Assembly: GCA_016930835.1 (NCBI GenBank) | Contig: JAFGGA010000185.1 | Coordinates: 1-53,576, forward strand | Direction: 5' to 3' | Origin: Deltaproteobacteria bacterium | Lineage (GTDB): Bacteria; Desulfobacterota; DSM-4660; Desulfatiglandales; HGW-15 | Length of the DNA stretch: 53,576 bases | Part shown: positions 2,783 to 49,689 of the stretch, one piece after another | Layout: every line of letters begins with the position of its first letter | How positions within the stretch are numbered: position 1 is the first letter of the stretch | Position numbers and translations under genes: made by a program | Notes under the pieces: model-generated | Databases searched by the model: none | Seen by the model: only the letters and a program-made list of their open reading frames with translations | Told to the model about the DNA's origin: nothing

Positions 2783-3042
2783 GTAACACTTTAGCTATTT
2801 TCAAATAATCCAAACAACTGGATTCCGCGATCAAGTCGCGGAATGACCTGTCTACCGTGTCGGACGCGGCGCAGGCAGGCGGAAAAGGGAAAATCATCAG
2901 GGAAAATAAAATGTGCGGCTCACAAAGGTACAGCGCTAATAAGATCAAACGTCATTCCGCAACCCCTCATCAAGTGCGGGGCAGGCTTGATCGCGGAATC
3001 CAGGCCTTGCATATCATCATTTTCAAAAGGCTAAACGGTTAC
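2783..3042 (+). repeat. MITE-like palindromic element, copy A
   Basis: About 260 bp element bounded by inverted termini GTAAC-xx-TTTAGC (left 2783-2795, right arm ending at 3042). Inside each end the sequence continues as inverted GGATTCCGCGATCAAG segments. A second copy lies in opposite orientation at 12888-13114 and matches along its whole length, including the unique A/T-rich core. Copy A has about 33 extra bases (2847-2879), themselves a palindrome. It encodes no transposase and has MITE architecture. Short frames crossing it are not genes. Confidence 0.8.
2847..2879. repeat. Nested 33-bp palindrome
   Basis: An imperfect palindrome with CCTGTCT-type left arm and GCAGGCAGG-type right arm, inserted in copy A of the MITE-like element and absent from copy B. 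A close relative (30 bp) sits inside a different repeat at 49591-49620. Confidence 0.6.
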
Positions 3043-12772: not shown

Positions 12773-12887
12773 GGTATCATCTCCTTTTAAAGATTGCTTC
12801 TCCCCACTCCTTACCGTGAGAGACCGTGTCAAAACTCTATTTAGAGCCCACGACGAACTCCTTCGGGTCGGCGTTGGCCGAGAAATC

Positions 12888-13114
12888 GTAACAGTTTAGC
12901 CTTTTGAAAATGATGAGGTGCAAGGCTTGGATTCCGCGATCAAGTCGCGGAATGACGATTGATTTTATTATCGCTATACCTTTATGAAGCACGCATTTTA
13001 TTTTTCCTTATGATTTTCCCTTTCCTGTCATTCCGCAGCCCCTCATCAAGTGCAGGACAGGTTTGATCACGGAATCCAGCTGTTTGGATTTTTTGAAAAT
13101 AGCTAAAGCGTTAC
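12888..13114 (-). repeat. MITE-like palindromic element, copy B (inverted relative to copy A)
   Basis: A 227-bp element with GTAACAGTTTAGCC at the left end and GCTAAAGCGTTAC at the right. Its reverse complement aligns with 2783-3042 across the termini, the GGATTCCGCGATCAAG segments and the A/T-rich unique core. It lacks the 33-bp nested palindrome of copy A. It fills part of the 915-base spacer between ssb and the RNase J gene. The rest of that spacer holds a half C/G palindrome near 13196-13218, no convincing gene, and the next repeat at 13568-13654. Confidence 0.8.
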
Positions 13115-13567
13115 AAGAAATCTTATTTTATAAATGCTTGATCTTTAGGGATTTATCCCTTCGACCGAAATGAAAATTTACACGGAAAGTCCATCACAGC
13201 ACAGCCTCCGAGGGGAGGGGGCATTTTGGACAAACGTTCATTATTGCATCAAAGAAGGAAGTACATTTCGGATCGAATATGGATTGATCTCAACCTAACA
13301 CAACCTTATAAAATAGATCAAGTCATTAAAGGAGAAGGTCATGAAAATATCATTCGATTCGTTCGAAATTCAGGGTTCGGCGTTCAGGATACAAAGTTAA
13401 AGGCAAGGGGGTTTTTAACCTGTAAGTAGGGTAAAAATGCCGAATCCATTCATTTACCTTGCTGGTTATGCCCAAAGCCTCAGGCCTTTTTCACTATTGA
13501 CTCAAATCTATATTAACAGTAAGCTATTGGAAATTCGGAATAATTATTAAGCGGCTGAAATAGCTGG

Positions 13568-27799: not shown

Positions 27800-30364
27800 A
27801 TGAAAATCAAAAAGACCATACCCGACTGGATGATTGGCGTGGCATTAACCCTTTTTTTCCTCTTCATCACGTTTACTGGGATATTTGATTTTACCGACGT
27901 AGTTGAGATGAAGACCTTTGATCTCCGGGCCAGATTGGCCGCTCCTTCCGAACGTAATCCGGATATCGAGCTTGTCGTGATCTCGGATGATGATCTTTCC
28001 GAATTGGGACGGTTCCCCTGGCCGAGAAATATTTTAGCACAAGGTATCCGGAATCTGGCCGATGGCGGCGCACGGGTCATCGCCTTAAATATTCTTTTCC
28101 CTGAGCCTGAAGAGAGCGCAGGATTAAAGAGTGTTAAGGAATTAAAAGAGGATTTTGATCGGATCGGCCTGGCACAGGAAGGAGCGGGCCTATCCTTCTA
28201 TAAAAAATTATCCCAGGCCGTGATCGATCTGGATAATGATACAAAACTAGCCAGCGCCATCAAAGAAGCCGGAAATGTGGTGCTTCCTATCTATTTTGAC
28301 TGGGAAAGCAAGGCTAGAGATAAAGCAGCTCCGGAATTTATTACACAGCATTCATTTAAACGCATACAAAATACAGAGGACGAATTCACCGTCTCCTCAG
28401 TACTTACGCTGGAGAAAATTACACCCATCCTGCCATCATTCGCTGAGGCCTCCGCGGCTGTTGGACATAACAATCTTTTCAGGGATACTGATGGATATAT
28501 AAGGGGTTTAGATCATGTTTTAAGATACCCTAAAGATATATATTTCCCATCATATCCTATTGCTGTCGTTAAAACGTTTTTGGATTTAAAAGATGAGGAT
28601 ATCATCATTACACTGGGACAAGGGATTGATTTAATAAGGAATCCCTCAACTGTTATAAGGATTCCGGTGGTTGAATACGAAATGAAAACCCTTATTAACT
28701 GGAATGCCGGACCCGGAGTCGCTTTTCATGAGACACGGTTTTCTAGGGTCTATAAAAATGAATTTGATACTAGCCTTTTTAGGGATAAGATCGTAATCGT
28801 CGGCATTATAGCGGAGGGTATCGTAGATCGATGGGTTACACCGGTTGGTACACTTCCGGGGACCGAAGTTATGGCCAATTCCGTGGCCAATATATTGAAC
28901 CAGCGCTTCATTTCGCGGCCCGATCTCATACCACTTCTTGAGTTTGGCGTCCTGTTACTCTTCGGTTTTTTCATCACTTTTGTTTTGCCGCGACAAAGGG
29001 CCGGCATCGGTGCCATCACATCACTCATACTCTTTCTGGCTTTTACCATTACTGGTATGGTTCTGTTTTTCTCTTATAATATATGGCTTAAGATTTCGCC
29101 TCCCATATTACTTTTGGTGATCGGATATATTTTGGTTATATCCAAACGTTTTCTCATTACGGAAAAGACCAAAGAAAAGGTGGAGGCCGATTCTGTTGAG
29201 ACCAACAAGATGCTGGGGCTTTCGTTCCAACAACAGGGCATGCTGGATCTGGCCCTGGAAAAGTTCCGTAAGATCCCATTGGATGAAGAGGGCACTAAGG
29301 ATCTGCTTTATAATCTGGGTCTTGATTTTGAGAGAAAGCGGCAATTCTCAAAGGCCTTATCCACCTATCAACGGATTATTGAAGATGGCAAAAATTTTAA
29401 AGACCTTGATGAACGCATACCGAAGATTAAGGGCGCGGAGGCCACTATGATCTTCGGTACCGGGGCCGGTGCCCACCCGGGCGACATCGGTGCGACACTT
29501 TTAAATACGGACACAAAACCCACCCTTGGGCGATATGAGGTGGTTGGTGAACTGGGCAGGGGTGCCATGGGTATCGTATACAGAGGAGAAGATCCCAAGA
29601 TCCATCGGACTGTGGCCATTAAGACGGTGAGGTTGTCCGATTTTGATGAAGAAATTGTGGATGAGATGAAGGAGCGTTTTTTCAGGGAGGCCGAATCTGC
29701 CGGCCTGCTGACCCATCCCAATATTGTGACGATTTATGACTGTGGTGAAGAGCACGATCTTGCCTATATCGCCATGGAATATTTAAACGGCGAGGATCTT
29801 GCCGAGTATACCCGTAAAGAAACGCTCTTACCCATTCGGGAGACATTAAGCATTGTCGTAAAAGCGGCGGAAGCACTGGATTACGCCCATAGTAAGGGGG
29901 TTGTCCATAGAGATGTGAAGCCGGCCAACATCATGCGCATCAAAGAAACCAATGAGATCAAGGTTGCGGATTTCGGGATCGCCAGGATTACATCATCTTC
30001 CAAGACTAAGACCGGTGTGGTGCTGGGAACACCGTCCTATATGTCCCCTGAGCAGATTGCGGGGAAGAAGGTGGATGGCCGTTCGGATATTTTTTCATTG
30101 GGTGTCGTATTATTTGAGATGCTGACCGGGCAAAAGCCTTTTGTCGGAGAAGACATGACCTCGTTGATGTACAAGATAGCCAAGGAACCCCATCCTTCAC
30201 CTCGGTCCATGAATCCGAAGATTCCCCAAGTCGTGGAAAGAATTATCGACATGGCCTTGGAAAAGGAAAAGGAAAAAAGATATCAAAAGGCCGGACAGAT
30301 GGCGGAACATCTTAAAAAAGTCATTGCCAAGATTGATGAGATACAAGCAAAAAAGAATTCATAA
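27800..30364 (+). CDS. CHASE2-domain Ser/Thr protein kinase
   Basis: An 854-residue membrane kinase. After a helix (about 12-30) comes an extracytoplasmic CHASE2 sensor domain (about 35-350, including VEMKTFDLRARLA and DKIVIVGIIAEGIVDRWVTP). Three transmembrane helices follow (about 370-455). A TPR-like helical linker (about 470-540) joins a Hanks-type kinase domain (about 575-845). The glycine loop is GELGRGAMGIVYRG, the catalytic loop HRDVKPAN is residues 703-710 (Asp705), and DFGIA follows. All catalytic residues are intact. A PP2C phosphatase gene follows 11 bases later. The signal sensed and the substrates are unknown. Confidence 0.9.
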   Translation: MKIKKTIPDWMIGVALTLFFLFITFTGIFDFTDVVEMKTFDLRARLAAPSERNPDIELVVISDDDLSELGRFPWPRNILAQGIRNLADGGARVIALNILFPEPEESAGLKSVKELKEDFDRIGLAQEGAGLSFYKKLSQAVIDLDNDTKLASAIKEAGNVVLPIYFDWESKARDKAAPEFITQHSFKRIQNTEDEFTVSSVLTLEKITPILPSFAEASAAVGHNNLFRDTDGYIRGLDHVLRYPKDIYFPSYPIAVVKTFLDLKDEDIIITLGQGIDLIRNPSTVIRIPVVEYEMKTLINWNAGPGVAFHETRFSRVYKNEFDTSLFRDKIVIVGIIAEGIVDRWVTPVGTLPGTEVMANSVANILNQRFISRPDLIPLLEFGVLLLFGFFITFVLPRQRAGIGAITSLILFLAFTITGMVLFFSYNIWLKISPPILLLVIGYILVISKRFLITEKTKEKVEADSVETNKMLGLSFQQQGMLDLALEKFRKIPLDEEGTKDLLYNLGLDFERKRQFSKALSTYQRIIEDGKNFKDLDERIPKIKGAEATMIFGTGAGAHPGDIGATLLNTDTKPTLGRYEVVGELGRGAMGIVYRGEDPKIHRTVAIKTVRLSDFDEEIVDEMKERFFREAESAGLLTHPNIVTIYDCGEEHDLAYIAMEYLNGEDLAEYTRKETLLPIRETLSIVVKAAEALDYAHSKGVVHRDVKPANIMRIKETNEIKVADFGIARITSSSKTKTGVVLGTPSYMSPEQIAGKKVDGRSDIFSLGVVLFEMLTGQKPFVGEDMTSLMYKIAKEPHPSPRSMNPKIPQVVERIIDMALEKEKEKRYQKAGQMAEHLKKVIAKIDEIQAKKNS

Positions 30365-30375
30365 TTACTGATACC

Positions 30376-31176
30376 ATGAAGGTTCGAGCCGTCGCAAAAA
30401 CCCATATCGGGAAAAAACGAAAACTGAATGAAGACAGCTATCTGGTAAGTGAAGAACTGGGGTTGTTTATTATCGCTGATGGGATGGGTGGCCATAAAAG
30501 CGGTGAAGTGGCCAGTCGTATGGTTGTCGATACCATGGCGGATTATTGGCAAAAATGGCGGAACAATAATCCACCATCATTTATCGCCCCTATTGAACAG
30601 GATCTGCCCAAGACCGCCAAGCATCTGTTAAACTCCATTGCCTTTGCCAACAGCATTGTCCATGAGGCCCAGAAAAAACCTGAATACCATCAGATGGGTT
30701 CCACGATCTCAGCTATACTTGTGGATGACGATTGCTTATGGTTGGCCAATGTCGGGGATAGCCCGGCCTATCTTTATGATCATGGTCATTTGATCCTGAT
30801 ATCCGAAGAGCATTCCGTTGAGGCTGAACAAAAGAGCTTGGGACTGTATGACGTGTCCGGCCCGGGGAATCCATTGATCAAAAATGTGCTTACACGGGTT
30901 CTGGGGCTCAATGAAAAGGTGGATGTTTTTATCACCCCCATAAGACCCGATGCAGGGGATATTATTGTGATGTGTTCGGATGGTCTGACCAATGAGTTGT
31001 CCGATAGGGATATCAAGATGATACTCGATGACACATCCACCCTCTTTGAGCAGAAGGTGAATATCTTGGTTGAGGAGGCCAACCGTTCAGGAGGTAAAGA
31101 TAATATCTCCGTGATCCTTTTGAAGGTTCTGGATGAAGGGAGATGGGAACGGATAAAAAGAAAATTAAAATTGTAG
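30376..31176 (+). CDS. PP2C-family Ser/Thr protein phosphatase
   Basis: A 266-residue Mg/Mn-dependent phosphatase (PPM/PrpC type). Motifs: RKLNEDSYLV, the metal-binding IIADGMGGHKSGEVAS, LANVGDSPAYL, IVMCSDGLTNELSD and the final GGKDNISVILLKV. All core aspartates are present. It is 11 bases downstream of the CHASE2 kinase gene and is probably its antagonist in one operon. A strong terminator follows at 31352-31403. Confidence 0.93.
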   Translation: MKVRAVAKTHIGKKRKLNEDSYLVSEELGLFIIADGMGGHKSGEVASRMVVDTMADYWQKWRNNNPPSFIAPIEQDLPKTAKHLLNSIAFANSIVHEAQKKPEYHQMGSTISAILVDDDCLWLANVGDSPAYLYDHGHLILISEEHSVEAEQKSLGLYDVSGPGNPLIKNVLTRVLGLNEKVDVFITPIRPDAGDIIVMCSDGLTNELSDRDIKMILDDTSTLFEQKVNILVEEANRSGGKDNISVILLKVLDEGRWERIKRKLKL

Positions 31177-34817: not shown

Positions 34818-37094
34818 ATGGGTATTTCAAGCATGGCAAAAGTATTACCAACTAATCGTCCCTCATTGGCCGCCAGAAATTTAGCCAATAAACCAAAATC
34901 ATCCCTAAAAGCAACTGTTAAGGATCAATCCGGAGCGGGAAAAACCCGTATCGGTGATATCTTATGTAAAGAGGGTCATATCACCAGTGGGCAGTTGGAA
35001 GAGGCCTTGGCATATCAAAAAAAAGATCAGAGTATGCTGGGGAGCATACTCTTAAAACTTGGATATATTGAAGAAGAGACGATCGTCAATGTTTTAAGCC
35101 GTATTCATAATTACCCTCCCGCCATTATTTCCAAGATGACACCGGATCCGGCGGCCATTAAGTTGCTGCCTTATAATATCGTCAAATCTTATATGGCCTT
35201 CCCTCTGAAATTAAGAGAAGAAACCCTTGAGATCACCATGTCCGAGCCTACCGACACCACCGCGGTGGAGGCCATGCAGATGAAGGTCAAAAAGGGTATC
35301 AAGGTATATGTTTCAACGGAGAAGGATATTATTGAGGCGTACAAGAAATATTATAAGATCTCCGAGGAAGAATATAAAAGTTTTTTTGATAAAAAATTAG
35401 AAGAGGAAGAAGACGAGGATCTCCCTGTGACGCAGGTGGATGACTTCGGCTCCCTTGTTTCAGAGGCGGCCGGTGATCTGGAGCTGGAACGGGATGATGA
35501 TGATGAACATGATGAATTCTCGGCCGGTGATGCCCCGATTATCAAACTGGTAAATGGTATTTTGATCCGGGCTGTGAATGAAGGGGTGAGTGATGTCCAT
35601 ATCGAGCCCTTTGAAAAGGCACTCCAGGTGCGATATCGCCTGGATGGAGCCCTTTATAAATCCATGAATCTGCCTATCAACATCAAGAACGCCATGATCT
35701 CCAGAATCAAGATCATGGCCAATCTTGATATCTCTGAACGTCGAGTTCCGCAGGATGGTCGCATCAAACTTCGGATGGGGAAAAGGCGGGTCATTGATTT
35801 TCGTGTCTCCACACTGCCGACACTTTTTGGAGAAGGTGTCGTATTGCGTATTCTTGATCCTGCAGCGCTGAATGTCGACCTGACCAAATTGGGATTTGAA
35901 GAAAGTACATTTGCCGCTTTTGATCGCTGTATTTCACGCCCTTATGGTTTGATCCTTGTGACGGGACCGACGGGTAGTGGTAAAACCACCACGTTGTATT
36001 CCGCACTCAATTCTTTGAACAAAGAGGATATCAAGATCCTTACGGCGGAAGATCCCATCGAATTCAACTTCAAGGGCATCAACCAGGTCAATGTCAAGAA
36101 TGAAGTGGGAATGACCTTCGCAGCGGCTCTCAGGGCTTTCTTGAGGCAGGACCCGGACATCATCATGGTAGGTGAGATTCGCGACATGGAAACCGCTGAA
36201 ATCGCGATTAAGGCAGCTATGACCGGGCATTTAGTCTTCAGCACCCTTCATACCAATGACTGCCCATCCACTATCGGTCGTTTAATGGATATAGGGATTC
36301 CGGCTTATATGTTGGCATCTTCCGTAACGATGATTCTATCTCAACGGTTGGCCAGGAGGCTCTGCCCCAAATGCAAGGTACCAATGAATGATCTGGATCC
36401 CGATGAACTGGAGAAGATGGGATTTTCCAAGGAAGAGATTCCGGAATTGACCGTGTACGGCCCAAAGGGGTGTTCGGAATGCAACAACGGATACAAAGGC
36501 CGCGTCGGCCTATATGAGCTTATGGAGGTGACGGATGAAGTGGCGAAGGCCATTAATGCGTCCGTACCGGAAGATCAGTTGAGAAAAACGGCCATGGCAG
36601 AAGGTATGGTCACCTTGCGGGAGGCCGGGCTTCAAAAGATACGTGAGGGAATGACCAGTATTGAGGAGGTACTGAAGCGGACCGTCATCACAAAAGAGGC
36701 ATTGCCGGCCTATTTGATCAATCCCGATGTGGAGCGTTATGAGGATGGGGATGTGATTATTCGTGAAGGAAATCGGGATGTGGATTTTTTCAAACTGGTC
36801 CAAGGGTCTCTATCAGTCGTCAAGCAAGGTAAAAAGATTGGTCAGATCGTGGAGCCGGAAGAATATTTTGGTGAAATGGCCGCCATATCCGGAGAGCCCC
36901 GATCCGCTTCCATCATCTCCAGGGGAAGGTCCGTCATCAAGCGTTACCCGGGAGATAAGCTCTCTGAGATCATCCAAAAACACCCGGATGTGGCCAAACA
37001 TCTTTTTGAAATCTCCGCCAGAAGACTGGATCAGGCCAATAAGGTATCATTGCGCTTGGCCAATGAGTTGAGGGCCAAGTCTCAACAAGCTTGA
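34818..37094 (+). CDS. PilB/GspE-type assembly ATPase with C-terminal cyclic-nucleotide-binding domain
   Basis: 758 residues against about 565 for typical PilB. N-terminal MshEN-type domain (about 45-180; TRIGDILCKEGHITSGQLEEA). ATPase core with Walker A GPTGSGKT (383-390), Walker B-region IIMVGEIRDMETAEIA, HLVFSTLHTNDCPST, and the four-cysteine zinc site (CPKC...CSEC) near 515-560. A cyclic-nucleotide-binding domain follows (about 635-745): YEDGDVIIREGN, KLVQGSLSVVK and an intact phosphate-binding cassette FGEMAAISGEPRSAS with Glu686 and Arg695. It would power type IV pilus or type II secretion assembly under cyclic nucleotide control (inference). No other pilus genes are adjacent. ATGs exist at 34818 and 34833; neither has a good Shine-Dalgarno sequence. 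Confidence 0.9.
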   Translation: MGISSMAKVLPTNRPSLAARNLANKPKSSLKATVKDQSGAGKTRIGDILCKEGHITSGQLEEALAYQKKDQSMLGSILLKLGYIEEETIVNVLSRIHNYPPAIISKMTPDPAAIKLLPYNIVKSYMAFPLKLREETLEITMSEPTDTTAVEAMQMKVKKGIKVYVSTEKDIIEAYKKYYKISEEEYKSFFDKKLEEEEDEDLPVTQVDDFGSLVSEAAGDLELERDDDDEHDEFSAGDAPIIKLVNGILIRAVNEGVSDVHIEPFEKALQVRYRLDGALYKSMNLPINIKNAMISRIKIMANLDISERRVPQDGRIKLRMGKRRVIDFRVSTLPTLFGEGVVLRILDPAALNVDLTKLGFEESTFAAFDRCISRPYGLILVTGPTGSGKTTTLYSALNSLNKEDIKILTAEDPIEFNFKGINQVNVKNEVGMTFAAALRAFLRQDPDIIMVGEIRDMETAEIAIKAAMTGHLVFSTLHTNDCPSTIGRLMDIGIPAYMLASSVTMILSQRLARRLCPKCKVPMNDLDPDELEKMGFSKEEIPELTVYGPKGCSECNNGYKGRVGLYELMEVTDEVAKAINASVPEDQLRKTAMAEGMVTLREAGLQKIREGMTSIEEVLKRTVITKEALPAYLINPDVERYEDGDVIIREGNRDVDFFKLVQGSLSVVKQGKKIGQIVEPEEYFGEMAAISGEPRSASIISRGRSVIKRYPGDKLSEIIQKHPDVAKHLFEISARRLDQANKVSLRLANELRAKSQQA

Positions 37095-49485: not shown

Positions 49486-49661
49486 TCTCGTAAAACGTCG
49501 TCACCCCGGTCCCATATCGAGTACCGGATAGACTGCGGCCGGGGTCCAGAGCCAATATAACTATTTGAAAAGACTGGATTTCGGCCTTCGCCTGTCTGCG
49601 TGCGGACACGCACAGGCAGGCCGGAATGACCAAAACGCGTATTTTTTGACTTTTTACGAGA
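49486..49661. repeat. 176-bp element with TCTCGTAAAA inverted ends
   Basis: The left end TCTCGTAAAACGTC and the right end GACTTTTTACGAGA are inverted. Inside is a copy of the CCGGGGTCCAG/GGATTTCGGCC repeat (about 49502-49630), which contains the nested palindrome 49591-49620. It fills most of the 330-base spacer before the DUF3568 gene. TTTACGAGACC also occurs at 44773, next to the palindrome there. Confidence 0.6.
49591..49620. repeat. Nested 30-bp palindrome, second copy
   Basis: CCTGTCTGCGTGC and GCACAGGCAGG-type arms; close to the palindrome at 2847-2879, but carried in a different host element. Confidence 0.6.
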
Positions 49662-49689
49662 CCGTCAATATTTGAGAGGAGAGATGATA

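Follow-up and report, generated by a model that had tools for sequence, protein, structure and literature searches.

Can a cyclic nucleotide act directly on the motor that extends a type IV pilus? The question is raised by a contig of 53,576 nucleotides from a Deltaproteobacteria bacterium (JAFGGA010000185.1 of GenBank assembly GCA_016930835.1; the whole stretch is called the window and its draft genome G000). Positions 34818 to 37094 of its forward strand encode a 758-residue protein in which a PilB-type ATPase is followed by a cyclic nucleotide-binding domain (CNBD). The best explanation, held with moderate confidence, is that PilB extension is under direct allosteric control by cyclic AMP (cAMP), or cyclic GMP (cGMP), via the fused CNBD.

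Identity of the motor

The fusion is encoded by one uninterrupted open reading frame (ORF) with zero internal stops, matched by TIGR02538, PF00437, PF05157, and PF00027. A frameshift joining two genes, which the original prediction had listed among the outcomes that would refute it, or an assembly artifact is excluded because the identical single-ORF layout recurs in dozens of independent genomes. The same prediction had spoken of a pilus or secretion ATPase. The pilus part holds, with 760 bits against the PilB model TIGR02538 (curated cut-off, 676), and the secretion part falls, with a GspE score of 585 bits, under that model's cut-off of 630. By these profile scores the protein is therefore the type IVa pilus extension ATPase PilB and not the secretion ATPase GspE.

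The motor is intact. Its ATPase core (T2SSE, PF00437; 2.6e-140) spans 384 residues (236 to 619; positions 35523 to 36674), and the Walker A motif GPTGSGKTT (residues 383 to 391, of which 383 to 390 are invariant; 35964 to 35990), the GE.RD box, and all four cysteines of the tetracysteine zinc motif (C516/C519 and C552/C555; 36363 to 36482) are unchanged across an alignment of fused proteins. The closest solved sequences to residues 42 to 623 are the PilBs 5ZFR, 3JC8, and 5TSG (~540 bits; Geobacter metallireducens and Myxococcus xanthus), which stop just past the ATPase domain, whereas the fusion protein continues for ~136 residues.

In 10 of 11 fusion genomes checked, no protein other than the fused one exceeds the PilB cut-off; it is therefore usually the pilus motor itself and, in those 10, not an extra paralogue beside a normal PilB. 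The exception (G464) has an unfused PilB over the cut-off and a fused copy below it. PilM is present in all 11 of these genomes and PilT in 10. PilB was found in 89 of 158 sampled genomes of the phylum and was fused in 9 of the 89; each fusion genome of this sample has one PilB-model locus at E ≤ 1e-200, except G000, with two fused copies. Fused and unfused PilB therefore substitute for one another.

G000 itself encodes seven PilB/GspE-type ATPases and PilM. Its second CNBD-PilB is split over two contig ends (C174:30671-32622 and C194:1-185; L043 and L044) and is ~86% identical over the C-terminal part, being either a true duplicate or a co-binned relative.

The cyclic nucleotide-binding domain

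The original prediction, a PilB-CNBD fusion with a complete phosphate-binding cassette, is borne out by profile search. Residues 639 to 722 (36732 to 36983) match Pfam cNMP_binding (PF00027) at an E value of 8.9e-15 and 54.9 bits (cut-off, 27.5), or 58.6 bits when the domain is searched alone, and among solved structures its best relatives by sequence are the regulatory domains of PKG and PKA (1.1e-22). As judged from these scores, the match is far beyond chance. The cassette FGEMAAISGEPRSAS (residues 684 to 698; 36867 to 36911) has Glu686 (36873 to 36875) and Arg695 (36900 to 36902) exactly where predicted.

Phe684, Gly685, Glu686, and Arg695 are unchanged in 77 of 77 homologues, while positions 691 to 694 vary. 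This conservation of Glu and Arg was not built in, as the seeds used to scan for homologues (EGN.D.DF and V.K.GKKI) lay outside the cassette. Across the homologues, all six Arg codons are used at residue 695 and both Glu codons at residue 686. In a profile alignment to the E. coli CRP sequence, Glu686, Arg695, Ser696, and Arg736 correspond to Glu72, Arg82, Ser83, and Arg123, and Ala740/Asn741 correspond to Thr127/Ser128; residue 736 is Arg in 77/77 homologues, and residue 741 is Asn, Asp, or Thr in 77/77.

An AlphaFold2 model of the isolated domain (pLDDT, 87) shows a beta-barrel and a C-helix and aligns best, in VIA-align, with cAMP-bound Vfr and CRP (Z scores of 16 to 17 over ~120 to 130 residues). 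The nearest relatives are thus PKG/PKA domains by sequence and CRP/Vfr by fold. Residues 736, 740, and 741 lie in the long C-terminal helix predicted as an alpha-C lid (residues 723 to 757; 36984 to 37088). Together, alignment and model give the pocket the look of a functional, putative cyclic nucleoside monophosphate (cNMP) site under constraint. The C-helix is the last element of the 758-residue chain, and no helix-turn-helix family was matched in Pfam; the protein is accordingly no CRP/FNR transcription factor, which would carry a C-terminal helix-turn-helix.

Free-standing proteins of ~250 amino acids that consist of two tandem CNBDs only were also observed (L179:4703-5473, L180:5075-5806, L181:4991-5782, and L182:4905-5726). 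The PilB CNBD has its closest relative in the second of these two domains. The genes in L181 and L182 adjoin a miaB-like gene, and those in L179 and L180 lie a few kilobases from a PilZ-like ORF.

Distribution and origin of the fusion

The survey of PilB homologues suggested in the original prediction covered 394 Thermodesulfobacteriota genomes, with 159 bits or more taken as a strong match. Strong matches occur in 34 of the 394, representing 12 families, nearly all in one long frame with the ATPase; the tandem CNBD proteins reach no more than 114 bits and represent something distinct from the fusion. A scan of ~85,000 species returned 76 loci, nearly all from Desulfobacterota-type bacteria by title, but its patterns came from the fused clade itself and thus cover other phyla poorly. 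Carriers in culture include Desulfobulbus elongatus DSM 2908, D. alkaliphilus, Desulfopila aestuarii DSM 18488, and Desulfosediminicola flagellatus (complete genome). Four genomes of the same family as G000 (G001, G003, G008, and G016) carry the fusion with 67 to 78% identity over the C-terminal 176 residues.

In trees of the ATPase domain, the fused proteins form one clade (SH-aLRT, 99 to 100) nested among PilBs. No unfused PilB fell inside this clade in either of two trees, the second with the lowest-scoring unfused PilBs added deliberately, although rare losses may have been missed because the fused proteins were sampled via their CNBD. One clade without unfused members points, on the branching of these sequences, to a fusion that arose once, early in one Thermodesulfobacteriota lineage, and was kept, with zero detected loss. 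In one family (f79; L175, L176, L177, and L178), the PilB-CNBD bears an extra Pro/Ala-rich tail of ~200 residues, and its gene adjoins an apparent metal ABC transporter.

The N-terminal domain and cyclic di-GMP

The MshEN site for cyclic di-GMP (c-di-GMP) consists of two 24-residue motifs, RLGxx..Q (Wang et al. 2016, PMC5013675). In the window protein, the corresponding region of 53 residues (44 to 96; 34947 to 35105) scores 59.7 bits against the c-di-GMP motif model NCBIfam NF053729 (cut-off, 38). It is followed by the second part of the MshEN/N1 domain (residues 99 to 183; 35112 to 35366; PF05157, 1.4e-13, 51 bits) and an acidic linker predicted to be disordered (residues 193 to 237; 35394 to 35528; pLDDT < 50). 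Motif I (R44, I45, G46, G53, L60, L64, and Q67) is complete save for Ile45 in place of Leu. Motif II is degenerate, with Met73 replacing Arg38 and Ile96 replacing Gln61, and the protein does not class as a two-motif MshEN c-di-GMP receptor. The c-di-GMP-binding domain that the original prediction saw as kept is thus present as a fold and as motif I, while motif II has decayed.

The drift extends through the clade. Of 67 fused proteins, 12 retain Gln61 and 38 retain Gly40, versus 24 of 30 and 30 of 30 canonical PilBs, respectively; Leu54 is always Ile or Val in the fused clade (0/67) versus Leu in 28 of 30 canonical PilBs. Such drift leaves two-messenger sensing possible and unsupported as a trait of the family.

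It also invites the thought that the motor of this clade swapped its messenger: the ancestral MshEN c-di-GMP site would have decayed and the C-terminal cNMP site taken over, the CNBDs of neighboring subunits would pair via CRP-like C-helices, the residue that aligns with CRP Ser128 would read the base across the pair, and cAMP would directly tune the hexamer. The case for a clean exchange of c-di-GMP for a cNMP is weakened by the nearest unfused PilBs, in which motif II is likewise partly degenerate. The exchange has the standing of an idea, not of a result, and this scheme as a whole appears doubtful.

Possible ligand source and gene neighborhood

G000 encodes six class III cyclases and has ~20 CNBD matches. 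The three cyclases that were read have intact catalytic Asp residues and what we take to be the adenine-type Lys. All 14 other fusion genomes examined have at least one class III cyclase. A ligand source is therefore plausible, although it does not count as evidence.

The gene neighborhood offers no guilt by association, since the neighbors are mostly housekeeping genes (by eye, NifU/NifS-like, ThyX-like, folate, and CODH genes). Three genomes stand apart. The fusion gene directly adjoins pilM in G107 (L187), prepilin-like N_methyl proteins are encoded within ~5 kb of it in G443, and in G398 a GAF-MshEN-T2SSE ATPase paralogue (L186:6471-8780) directly adjoins the CNBD-PilB. The GAF-MshEN-T2SSE protein is another sensor-fused paralogue and is also encoded in G000 (C96; L045:2100-4400).

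Elsewhere in the window, a CHASE2-Ser/Thr kinase is encoded beside a PP2C-type phosphatase (27800 to 31176), ~3.6 kb upstream of the fusion gene. Dispersed repeats at 2783 to 3039, 49486 to 49673, and 12882 to 13120 are ~68 to 86% identical to copies on G000 contig C194.

Proposed mechanism and alternatives

In the favored mechanism, a 3',5'-cyclic nucleotide from class III cyclases, more probably cAMP than cGMP, would bind the pocket, Glu686 contacting the ribose 2'-OH and Arg695 the phosphate. The bound ligand would then be capped by the C-terminal helix, as happens in CRP, PKA, and HCN channels, and the joint between the ATPase and the CNBD (residues 620 to 638, TVITKEALPAYLINPD; 36675 to 36731) would carry this motion into the C-terminal domain of the ATPase. 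The subunits of the PilB hexamer would pack differently in its C-terminal ring, changing hexamer assembly or ATP turnover, and pilus extension would be controlled directly and independently of transcription. Our guess leans slightly toward a ligand that permits, rather than blocks, extension. In the joint, pLDDT is low at residues 626 to 634; T622, P630, Y632, L633, and P636 are invariant or nearly so, and this strong conservation argues for mechanical coupling and against a loose tether.

Several points weigh against this mechanism. The choice between cAMP and cGMP is settled neither by sequence nor by fold. Co-occurrence with class III cyclases was rejected as support because it does not discriminate: the enzymes are common (present in 118 of the 158 sampled genomes and in 7 of the 9 among them that carry the fusion), and G095 and G226, both fusion genomes, had no class III cyclase at 1e-12. 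The fusion gene is usually solitary, has no adjoining cyclase, and sits among the housekeeping genes described above. The place of the CNBD on the hexamer is not fixed by the full-length model because its pTM is modest, at only 0.46. No PilT retraction ATPase was found in the draft genome G000, which an assembly gap may explain. Finally, ligand binding, ligand identity, the effect on the motor, its direction, and stoichiometry are what we infer.

Might the CNBD instead serve mainly as a structural or docking module, for dimerization, polar localization, or contact with a PilM-, PilC-, or PilZ-type partner, with an incidental pocket? CRP/FNR-fold domains that do not bind cNMPs exist, and FNR structures match the CNBD model (Z score of ~15); the long C-helix (723 to 757) resembles the CRP dimer helix; and Hfq docks on the C-terminal extension of PilB1 in Synechocystis (PMC7690835). 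However, all 77 homologues share Glu686 and Arg695, a pair that serves the ligand and that the fold does not require, while their cassette neighbors vary, and docking alone is an unlikely account of the domain.

The original prediction had envisaged one ATPase reading two messengers, c-di-GMP through MshEN and a cNMP through the CNBD. M. xanthus PilB, Vibrio cholerae MshE, and Clostridium perfringens PilB2 bind c-di-GMP at N1 (reviewed in PMC11656802), and in the window protein the N1 domain exceeds the NCBIfam cut-off and motif I is intact. The proposal is nevertheless weakened by a motif II that lacks the Arg38 and Gln61 equivalents and by the clade-wide erosion of Gln61, Gly40, and Leu54, and a true integrator of this kind now seems quite improbable. 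Least probable is a CNBD that binds another ligand, whether some other effector or c-di-GMP, the ligand of Xanthomonas Clp. CRP-fold proteins have switched ligands, as in the c-di-GMP-responsive Clp (3IWZ; Z score of 14.8 to the CNBD model), and the two fusion genomes without a class III cyclase at 1e-12 would fit such a change, but the canonical 3',5'-cNMP Glu/Arg pair is fully kept, including in L169 from the cyclase-poor G095.

Comparison with known systems

PilB, MshEN, and CNBD are each well known, and their combination in one protein is apparently undescribed. In agreement with the original prediction, no paper on a PilB-CNBD fusion was found in searches of open-access full text, although the architecture may already be listed in automated domain databases. 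In cyanobacteria, cAMP affects type IV pili through transcription. Pseudomonas aeruginosa likewise controls pili by Vfr-driven transcription in response to cAMP and not on PilB, and a 2024 review of PilB treats cAMP solely as a transcriptional signal (PMC11656802). A cNMP sensor on the extension motor would, if confirmed, provide a direct and fast route beside transcription and imply that the messenger input of PilB is replaceable in evolution. It would bear on the control of attachment and surface motility in sulfate reducers and their relatives; the carriers are mostly sulfate-reducing-type bacteria, and the cultured strains make the proposal testable with one purified domain.

The fusion shares MshEN/N1, N2, the ATPase, Walker motifs, and tetracysteine with the PilBs of G. 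metallireducens (5TSG/5TSH) and M. xanthus (3JC8). Known PilBs, however, end ~5 residues after the ATPase domain, whereas the fusion adds its ~136 residues with the CNBD and has a degenerate motif II. Like MshE and Thermus thermophilus PilF, which belong to the same N-terminal family, it would combine a messenger sensor and an extension motor in one chain, but those proteins read c-di-GMP at the N terminus and the fusion has a cNMP-type sensor at the C terminus. Synechocystis PilB1 also has a lineage-specific C-terminal addition, which docks Hfq and is not described as a CNBD (PMC7690835). With CRP and Vfr the CNBD shares the fold, the Glu/Arg cassette, and the long C-helix; where those proteins carry a DNA-binding domain, the fusion has none, and its partner is a motor ATPase. 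In SthK and HCN channels and in PKA and PKG, a CNBD likewise gates the output of the ring or enzyme to which it is directly linked, and in the fusion that output would be a hexameric pilus ATPase.
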